Assembly: GCA_947259235.1 (NCBI GenBank)
Contig: CAMYLL010000028.1
Span: 1-14,579, forward strand
DNA length: 14,579 bases
Direction of reading: 5' to 3'
Origin: an uncultured Pseudodesulfovibrio sp.
GTDB taxonomy: Bacteria; Desulfobacterota; Desulfovibrionia; Desulfovibrionales; Desulfovibrionaceae
Positions 2 to 1,761 of the stretch are shown here, piece by piece (within the stretch, counting starts at the first letter, position 1; the number at the start of each line of letters is the position of its first letter). The notes under the pieces were generated by a model. The model saw nothing but the letters and a program-made list of their open reading frames with translations, ran no database searches and was not told the DNA's origin. A program made the position numbers and the translations under genes.

Positions 2-178
2 ACGGTCATCATCGCTCCCGCCTCGGGCGAGGGCAGGACCGAGCCCGACGAGCTGGCCGAACTGGTGGCTCAGGAGAGCGAGGCGGGCGGCAAGCCCAAG
101 GAGATCGCCCGCCGGGTGGCCGCGCGGGCCGTTGGCTGGACAGCCAAAGAGGTCTATGCCACCATGCGTTCCGAATGA
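2..178 (+). CDS. rsmI: C-terminal end of a probable 16S rRNA 2'-O-ribose methyltransferase RsmI (partial)
   Basis: The first 58 codons, open from the window edge, are the end of a longer gene whose start lies outside. The fragment begins with a hydrophobic strand (TVIIAPA). After an acidic linker comes a small helical segment with GKPKEIARRVAARA followed by GWTAKEVYATM. This matches the C-terminal helix-turn-helix-like tail of RsmI, which usually reads as a 'K-E/D-A-A-K ... K-K-E-V/L-Y' pattern. In the family, RsmI methylates the ribose of C1402 in 16S rRNA using SAM; the catalytic domain is not visible here. The stop codon overlaps the bioB start (ATGA, 175-178), which suggests translational coupling. 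The call rests on a short tail, so another protein with a similar end is possible. Confidence 0.7.
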   Translation, partial: TVIIAPASGEGRTEPDELAELVAQESEAGGKPKEIARRVAARAVGWTAKEVYATMRSE

Positions 179-1149
179 CCCTGAAAGCGGCATATGACAA
201 GGCTTTGGCCGGGAAATCCCTGAGCGATTCGGATATCCGCTTTCTGACGGACCTGCCTGCCGAGCGCGTGCCGGAACTCATACGTCATGCCCATGCCCTG
301 CGTCTGGCCCGGTTCGGCGACAGGGTGGAGCTGTGCGCCATCGTCAACGCCAAGTCGGGCGGGTGCTCCGAGGACTGCTCCTTCTGCGCCCAGTCGAGCC
401 GCAGCACTGCGGACAGCCCGCGCCATCCGCTGCTCCCGGCCCGAGACATCGCGGCCGCAGGCAGGGCGGCCAGGGAACGCGGGGCCACCCGGTTCGGCGT
501 GGTGGCCAGCGGCAAGCGGGTGGGCGCGCGCGACCTCGCCGGATTCGCCGAGGCCGTGGGCCTGCTGGCCGGGCTGGGCCTGTCTCCCGACCTGTCGCCG
601 GGCGTCCTCGACCAGGGGCAAGTAAAAACGTTGAAGAAGGCCGGGCTCAAGGGGTATCATCACAACCTGGAGACGTCGGCCTCGTTCTTTCCGCGCATGT
701 GCACCACCCATGACTACGACGAGGACGTGCAGGCGGTGCGGGCCGGGGTCGCGGCCGGGCTGCATGTCTGCTGCGGAGGCATCTTCGGCATTGGCGAGAG
801 CTGGGACGACCGGGTGGAGCTGGCCCTGCTCCTGGGTGAGCTGGGCGTGGACTCCGTGCCCATCAATTTTTTGCAGCCCATCCCCGGGACGCCCCTGGGC
901 GGGCGCGAGCCGCTCTCAAGGAGCGAGGCCCTCAAGGTGGTGGGGCTCTACAGGTTTCTGCTGCCGGACAGGGCGCTGCGCATCTGCGGCGGACGACTGC
1001 CGGTGTTCGGCTCCGATGGCGGACCCGAACTGCTGACCTCGGGCGCGAACGGCCTGATGATCGGCGATTATCTGACGGTGCGCGGTGGCGACACGGCCTC
1101 GGACCTCGCGGCCATCCGCGCCGCCGGGCTGCGGCCGCAGGTCGTCTGA
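175..1149 (+). CDS. bioB: Biotin synthase BioB, variant auxiliary-cluster site
   Basis: Radical SAM enzyme that inserts sulfur into dethiobiotin, the last step of biotin synthesis; 324 residues, normal for the family. The SAM [4Fe-4S] motif CxxxCxxC is complete (C64, C68, C71, in GGCSEDCSFCAQSS). The family blocks GLKGYHHNLETS (158-169), CCGGIFGIGE (199-208), VPINFLQPIPGTP (228-240) and RICGGR (269-274) are all present. Compared with E. coli BioB from memory, the spacing aligns without gaps from the SAM motif to C188. E. coli C97 becomes Gly108 and C128 becomes Asp139, while C188 (C199) and R260 (R269) are kept. Two extra cysteines, C200 and C271, replace Ser189 and Ser262. This looks like the second BioB class, known from anaerobes and carrying a different auxiliary Fe-S cluster. 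No other biotin synthesis gene is in the window; bioY follows 60 bases on. Confidence 0.95.
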   Translation: MTLKAAYDKALAGKSLSDSDIRFLTDLPAERVPELIRHAHALRLARFGDRVELCAIVNAKSGGCSEDCSFCAQSSRSTADSPRHPLLPARDIAAAGRAARERGATRFGVVASGKRVGARDLAGFAEAVGLLAGLGLSPDLSPGVLDQGQVKTLKKAGLKGYHHNLETSASFFPRMCTTHDYDEDVQAVRAGVAAGLHVCCGGIFGIGESWDDRVELALLLGELGVDSVPINFLQPIPGTPLGGREPLSRSEALKVVGLYRFLLPDRALRICGGRLPVFGSDGGPELLTSGANGLMIGDYLTVRGGDTASDLAAIRAAGLRPQVV

Positions 1150-1209: not shown

Positions 1210-1761
1210 ATGCCCAAGGATTCTCTCCACGACCTTCACCAGCTTGTCTGGACCGCGCTCCTCGCCGCAACCATCGGGGCCGGAGCGTATCTCATCGTGC
1301 CCATCGGGCCGGTTCCGGTCTCCATGCAGCCATTCTTCGTCTTTCTGGCGGGTTATGTTCTCGGTCCCCGGCGGGGGGCCATGGCCGTGGCCCTGTATCT
1401 GCTGGCCGGAACCATCGGCCTGCCCGTGTTCGCGGGCGGGCGGTCCGGTCTGGGGCATCTCTTCGGACCCACCGGCGGCTACCTCTTCGGCTGGCTGGTC
1501 ACCGCCTGGCTGTGCGGCCTGGGCCGCGACCGGGACGGCGGGCTGCCCTGGGTGCGCGGCGGCGCGTTCGGGCTGGCGGCGCTGCTCACGCTCTATGGGA
1601 TGGGCGCGGCCTGGCTCAAGTTCGCCCTGGCCATGAGCTGGCACAAGGCGTGGCTGGTGGGCATCGCCCCGTTCATCCCCTGGGACGCCGTCAAGATCGT
1701 GGCCGCGCTGGCATGCGCCCGCTACCTGACGCGGCTTAGGCTGTTGCCGGGGCGCAGGTAA
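1210..1761 (+). CDS. bioY: Biotin transporter BioY (ECF S component)
   Basis: Integral membrane protein of 183 residues that binds biotin. It works alone or as the substrate-binding S component of an ECF transporter with EcfT and EcfA, neither of which is in the window. Family signatures are clear: IGPVPVSMQPFFVFLAGYVLG (residues 32-52), the LYLLAGTIGLPVFAGG block (62-77) and GPTGGYLFGW (86-95). The C-terminal half contains further membrane segments and the FIPWDAVKI stretch (155-163) typical of the last helix. About six transmembrane helices are expected. AGGAAG lies immediately upstream of the start at 1201-1206, an unusually short spacing. Being next to bioB, it gives the cell both synthesis and uptake of biotin, a common pairing. 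It sits where a PTS IIC gene might be expected, just before EIID, but its motifs are BioY and not IIC. Confidence 0.93.
   Translation: MPKDSLHDLHQLVWTALLAATIGAGAYLIVPIGPVPVSMQPFFVFLAGYVLGPRRGAMAVALYLLAGTIGLPVFAGGRSGLGHLFGPTGGYLFGWLVTAWLCGLGRDRDGGLPWVRGGAFGLAALLTLYGMGAAWLKFALAMSWHKAWLVGIAPFIPWDAVKIVAALACARYLTRLRLLPGRR

Follow-up and report, generated by a model that had tools for sequence, protein, structure and literature searches.

How biotin synthase (BioB) releases sulfur, and how its auxiliary cluster is then rebuilt, is a long-debated question. In the Escherichia coli enzyme, the ligands of this cluster sit on strands of the barrel. They are listed as Cys97, Cys128, Cys188 and Arg260 in the accessible part of a study of mycobacterial BioB, which requires the protein BsaP, and the same text counts S43 among the cluster-surrounding residues that differ in mycobacteria (PMC11099021). 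Type II biotin synthase (Lachowicz et al., JACS 2024, 10.1021/jacs.3c05481) is described in other papers as having an auxiliary [4Fe-5S] cluster to which a sulfide is ligated. Pathways that retain only BioB and are fed by dethiobiotin, often together with BioY, have already been proposed in gut bacteria, according to the accessible part of PMC6593275.

The window, by which we mean the whole stretch of 14,579 nucleotides analysed here (contig CAMYLL010000028.1 of an uncultured Pseudodesulfovibrio sp.), opens with the end of a gene that we take to be rsmI from our own reading of its protein, followed by bioB and bioY (Table 1). The TGA of the upstream gene overlaps the bioB start codon as ATGA, and the order rsmI-bioB-bioY recurs in three genomes of the same genus whose ORFs were read by eye. 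No BsaP-like gene for a small Fe-S protein lies directly beside bioB, the direct neighbours being the presumed rsmI 3′ end and bioY. Members of Pseudodesulfovibrio are anaerobic sulfate reducers, and several homologs at 65–70% identity among the best 120 of 4840 matches carry this genus name. The source genome is 82.8% complete and contains one BioB match.

The encoded protein scores 322.7 bits against TIGR00433, the BioB equivalog (cut-off 225), and consists of a Radical_SAM domain (PF04055) and a BATS domain (PF06968). The top family not named biotin synthase was PylB, at 74 bits against its own cut-off of 348.2. The protein is a BioB; affiliation with another radical SAM enzyme, which the sequence-only reading had named as the outcome that would tell against it, is not supported by these scores. 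The CxxxCxxC SAM motif and the equivalents of C188 (C199) and Arg260 (R269) are all present. Among solved structures, the best matches are 8vcw and 8vdw (200.9 and 199.5 bits), which we take to be the published type II biotin synthase structures, followed at some distance by E. coli 1r30 (146.4 bits).

Alignment to E. coli BioB, with the NC_000913 bioB product as the numbering reference, pairs C64, C68 and C71 with C53, C57 and C60, G108 with C97, D139 with C128, C199 with C188 and R269 with R260. It also places C54 at S43, R106 at R95, C176 at I165, H179 at R168, C200 at S189 and C271 at S262. C71 and C199 are 128 residues apart, as are C60 and C188 in E. coli, and no gap falls between them in the alignment. 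The comparison with E. coli in the sequence-only reading was therefore accurate: the spacing from the SAM motif to C199 is unchanged, Cys97 and Cys128 have become Gly108 and Asp139, Cys188 and Arg260 are kept, and additional cysteines stand at the Ser189 and Ser262 equivalents. The type I ligand set C97/C128/C188/R260 is incomplete, with G108 and D139 at the first two places. Both 8vcw and 8vdw carry Cys at 54, 139, 176 and 199, together with His179, Arg269, Ser200 and Ala271, and three of their four common cysteines are found here, position 139 being Asp. C176, earlier picked out as a further candidate ligand, is common to both structures and a Cys in 612 of 641 homolog rows. C54, the E. coli S43 position, had been overlooked. 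Because C54, C176 and H179 are common to 8vcw, 8vdw and most relatives, assignment to the anaerobe-type ("type II-like") class is supported, and the residues that mark this class in the alignment are C54 and C176. The sequence-only reading had also proposed a second, anaerobe class of BioB; the class is supported, but by C54, C176 and H179. A TGA flagged in the BioB match of one further genome (G231) was considered as a selenocysteine codon and turned out to be a normal stop codon.

Table 1 Features of the bioB locus in the window (homolog rows as defined in the text).
Feature	Position	Strand	Basis
3′ end of upstream gene (rsmI in relatives)	2..178	+	Contig start; protein read by eye
bioB, type II-like biotin synthase, 324 aa	175..1149	+	ORF including stop codon; TIGR00433; Radical_SAM and BATS domains; AlphaFold2 model
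C54, type II-like Cys, candidate auxiliary-cluster ligand	334..336	+	Cys in 634/641 rows and in 8vcw/8vdw; modelled strand 50–61
C64-x3-C68-x2-C71, SAM-binding [4Fe-4S] motif	364..387	+	Each Cys in 186/186 rows
R106 and G108 (E. coli R95, C97)	490..498	+	Cys sites in relatives that lack C139 and lack Asp/Glu/His there; no Cys here
D139 (E. coli ligand C128), candidate oxygen ligand, codon GAC	589..591	+	121/121 near homologs; Asp in 38/185 diverse rows
C176-T-T-H179 (E. coli I165...R168), type II-like motif	700..711	+	C176 in 612/641 rows; H179 in 178/186
C199 (E. coli ligand C188)	769..771	+	Cys in 641/641 rows
C200 (E. coli S189), probably incidental	772..774	+	S/C/A/V in 121/46/14/5 of 186 rows
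R269 (E. coli R260) and C271 (E. coli S262)	979..987	+	Kept Arg; lineage-conserved extra Cys, 498/641 rows
bioY, biotin transporter S component	1210..1761	+	PF02632, 146.7 bits

An AlphaFold2 model built from 102 sequences (mean pLDDT 96.6, pTM 0.93) places C54 in strand 50–61, G108 in strand 106–111, D139 in strand 137–141, C199 in strand 197–199 and R269 in strand 267–270, positions that fit the placement of the E. coli ligands on barrel strands. If side chains alternate as usual up to the strand ends, C271, two residues past R269, should point into the pocket, and C200, which adjoins C199, out of it. C271 probably lies in the same pocket as R269.

Conservation was counted in three samples. 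The near-homolog set (n = 121) consists of the window protein and the best 120 of 4840 matches; in it D139, C176, H179, C199 and R269 are each present in 121/121, C271 in 120/121, C54 in 120/120 with one gap, and C200 in 10/121. A diverse set of 186 rows was obtained by dropping rows at least 70% identical to an earlier row, which reduced 460 rows to 184 at <70% mutual identity, and adding 8vcw and 8vdw. In this set Cys occupies position 54 in 181/186 rows, 139 in 131/185, 176 in 163/186, 199 in 186/186, 271 in 129/186 and 200 in 46/186; positions 125 (53/186), 252 (35/186) and 291 (24/185) are also partly Cys, and at the R269 position about half of the 184 rows have K, I, V, L, T, M or others. 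The full count of 641 rows was not dereplicated and includes repeats, among them the window protein itself (as P0001 and L001) and one gene entered twice (L037/L125). Homologs were taken from the best 120 of 4840 matches, the best 120 of 8000 (119 used), the best 120 of 7957, and 80 of 583; a BioB match was found in 200 of 297 genomes, and the rows come from part of the matches listed. Rows with <230 aligned residues, a 428-aa protein with an extra domain (P0122, PF19288) and an E. coli duplicate (L031) were dropped. The phylum of the window itself makes up most of the sample; the 80 named loci come only in part from other phyla, and type I is represented by a single sequence. Trees were built without the trait columns, and the number of changes at each position was compared to 100 label shuffles: position 139 changes 11 times (38–53 in shuffles), 176 changes 9 times (20–23) and 271 changes 13 times (41–56).

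Among the 54 rows of the first set that lack Cys at 139, Asp is the commonest replacement (38 rows), and it accounts for 6 of 13 changes out of C139 where 3.3% would be expected from BLOSUM62 and the composition of BioB. Rows with Ser139 and Cys106 brought a regularity to our attention, which was fixed as a rule before 179 further rows were examined: where residue 139 is neither Cys nor Asp/Glu/His, a Cys is found at 106 or 108 (E. coli R95 or C97). In the first 186 rows, Cys at 106/108 accompanied 14/14 such residues, compared with 3/40 for Asp/Glu/His139 and 11/131 for C139; one more row of this set, gapped at 139, has it too. The further 179 rows gave 71/71 versus 0/108 for C139; they contain no Asp/Glu/His139, so that they test the rule for Cys but not for Asp, and 120 of them are the best 120 of 7957 matches to a query (L133) that itself has the trait. 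The 59 further rows not picked for the trait showed the Cys in 6/6 versus 0/53 with C139, and the 42 that are <70% identical to all earlier rows in 9/9 versus 0/33. Taken over all 641 rows, the substitute Cys is present in 93/93 rows without C/D/E/H139, 3/174 with D/E/H139 and 13/373 with C139, as well as in the single row gapped at 139. Among the sampled rows, C139 is lost without a substitute Cys only where residue 139 is a possible metal ligand. Counted as events on the tree, a substitute Cys accompanies 6/6 losses to S/A/G and 1/6 replacements by D/E/H (Fisher p = 0.015), while independent pairs on well-supported branches point in the same direction but number only four (p 0.125 at best). 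These parsimony events come from quick trees that are somewhat discordant, L129/L130 having their own D event in one and falling within the window's clade in another, and one D event lies on a 4-row branch (with L176) of support 0.

Several other ligand patterns were encountered. In nine BioBs with Ser139 and Cys106 (L048, L051, L057, L063, L080, L085, L103, L133 and L152), and in 59 further rows with the L133 pattern, the cluster Cys has apparently moved to the neighbouring strand. A further ligand set, Val176 with Cys54/139/199, occurs in L101, L102, L111, L113, L162, L177, L190 and others, and Arg54, Cys108 and Gly139 occur together in L174, L191 and L203, of which two are Dadabacteria records and one is an unclassified MAG. 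One protein of the same order (L138, genome G052) has C54 and C108 without C139 or C176, midway between the E. coli and anaerobe patterns. The only one of the 186 diverse rows with fewer than three Cys among positions 54/108/139/176/199/271 is L193, from a Planctomycetaceae MAG, which retains Cys only at 54 and 199 and has D139, T176 and R179; a reduced site with D139 therefore exists.

The sequence-only reading had taken the lost and the gained cysteines as one exchange within the pocket, a view that fares differently for the two residues and finds no support for the exchange itself. C200 was tried as a ligand and rejected: it is scattered almost at random, and with 36 changes on the 186-row tree, just under the lowest shuffle (37–46, mean 41.0), it carries very little inherited signal. 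It is present in only 10/121 near homologs and probably has no role. C271, by its 13 changes against 41–56, is an inherited and strongly lineage-conserved residue. By parsimony its single gain maps to a branch of 93 rows (support 80), inside which the change from C139 to Asp falls on a branch of 26 rows (support 98). Outward from the window protein, D139/C271 is found in each of the first 26 rows; of the next four, two are C139/C271 and two D139/A271, and the following 14 are mostly C139/C271. Since C271 arose earlier than the loss of C139 in this event count, the one was not exchanged for the other, and no compensating pattern links loss and gain as one event. Replacement of C139 by C271 as the fourth ligand, close to the earlier idea, is accordingly improbable in our estimate: C271 is found in 120/121 near homologs, is strongly inherited and, at two residues from R269, probably shares its face, but in the 184-row table 92 of the 129 rows with C271 have C139 as well, 11 rows combine D139 with A271, and the independent pairs lean the same way (2.3 in the same direction and 0.1 opposite, of 4 supported pairs; underpowered and not significant). 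That C271 took over from R269, the Arg260 equivalent, as the odd ligand is hardly likely at all. I/V/L is found at 269 in 27/129 C271 rows and in 3/55 without C271, yet the presence of R269 is unrelated to that of C271 (Fisher p = 0.75), the independent pairs show no compensation, with 4 supported pairs only, and both residues are kept in the window's lineage. C271 is an extra conserved thiol.

We consider it probable that the protein functions as a biotin synthase and belongs to the anaerobe (type II-like) class, with its auxiliary cluster on C54/C176/C199 and Asp139 at the fourth place. The [4Fe-4S] cluster bound by C64/C68/C71 would cleave SAM to give a radical that activates dethiobiotin, and sulfur would be delivered from the auxiliary cluster inside the barrel, as expected for the BioB family. 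The conserved C54, C176 and C199 would hold this cluster and, in the place of E. coli C128, Asp139 may serve as an oxygen ligand instead of Cys. That substitution is the likeliest single reading of position 139, although we put it slightly below an even chance; it is suggested by the distribution of the substitute Cys (93/93 versus 3/174 rows), which makes Asp139 a candidate cluster ligand. It has a precedent in the aspartate-ligated cluster of NsrR, and PMC11138216, in the part that was accessible, considers labile ligands of clusters that donate sulfur. Asp139 could instead hydrogen-bond R106 or water. A second arrangement, which we regard as plausible but doubtful, needs only C54/C176/C199, leaving the fourth iron free for an extra sulfide and Asp139 in the second shell. 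These three cysteines vary least (634, 612 and 641 of 641 rows), 13 of the 54 rows without C139 combine them with Ala271, and a [4Fe-5S] cluster with a ligated sulfide, as far as the accessible description goes, could be three-cysteine; this arrangement, however, leaves both the preference for Asp at 139 and the Cys106/108 of 93/93 S/A/G-type rows unexplained. We find it very unlikely that the auxiliary site is damaged or depends on a partner protein as in mycobacteria, where BioB has Ala at C128 and Glu at S43 and needs BsaP (accessible part of PMC11099021), because none of C54, D139, C176, H179, C199 and R269 varies among the 121 homologs wherever the position is present, the pocket still has three to four cysteines, and the direct neighbour of bioB is bioY and not a gene for a small Fe-S protein. 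Returning to the oxygen ligand at Asp139, we tentatively extend it to a one-slot rule, in which the iron that C128 binds in the E. coli enzyme would keep a protein ligand through C139, through Cys106/108, or through Asp/Glu/His139; among Pseudodesulfovibrio and its relatives the cluster would be Asp-ligated and probably more labile, and C271 could carry sulfur. The literature searched contained no Asp ligand in BioB and no such rule, the primary type II paper lying outside the reach of the search; the rule is new in this analysis and is not claimed as unpublished. The natural ligand series (Cys; Asp/Glu/His; next strand) could show whether sulfur transfer and turnover depend on how labile the ligand is, and the residues to mutate are C54, C176 and D139 rather than C200.

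In the cell, bioB is paired with bioY. Both genes are present in 22 of the 23 same-genus genomes searched for both, the source genome included, and adjoin in 21 of these 22; one genome has them apart (G021) and one lacks bioB (G017). Four genomes that are 99–100% complete (G006, G007, G009, G015) keep bioB and bioY, while their bioA and bioD matches stay under the cut-offs and their bioF matches under 30 bits; the bioA matches (210–239 bits) are probably other aminotransferases. In the source genome, no bioD or bioA match exceeded the cut-off and no bioF match was found, which may simply reflect missing sequence. The retention of bioB and bioY without bioA or bioD matches over the cut-offs or a strong bioF match suggests possible salvage of dethiobiotin, and in this lineage the enzyme may mainly convert imported dethiobiotin. 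In five genomes (G010, G012, G019, G021, G022), bioD and bioA matches adjoin in open frames of equal length (675–1106 aa) and probably represent one fused gene, and only weak bioF matches were seen there. A tandem pair of bioY matches stands beside bioB on contigs G007:C17, G009:C1 and G012:C4.

Set against the known systems, the window protein is a radical SAM relative of the methylornithine synthase PylB and of HydE, but scores far lower against them (PylB, 74 bits; cut-off 348.2). With the BsaP-dependent mycobacterial BioB, as described in the accessible part of PMC11099021, it shares a non-Cys residue at C128 and an acidic residue in the pocket, although the mycobacterial enzyme has Ala at C128 and Glu at S43 where Asp and Cys are found here. 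The type I E. coli enzyme (1r30, auxiliary [2Fe-2S]) has the same SAM motif and the C188 and R260 equivalents, whereas the window protein lacks C97 and C128 and has C54, C176 and H179. The presumed type II enzymes 8vcw and 8vdw are similar over the full length and share C54, C176, H179, C199 and R269; they differ in carrying Cys139, Ala271 and Ser200, in place of the Asp139, Cys271 and Cys200 found here.
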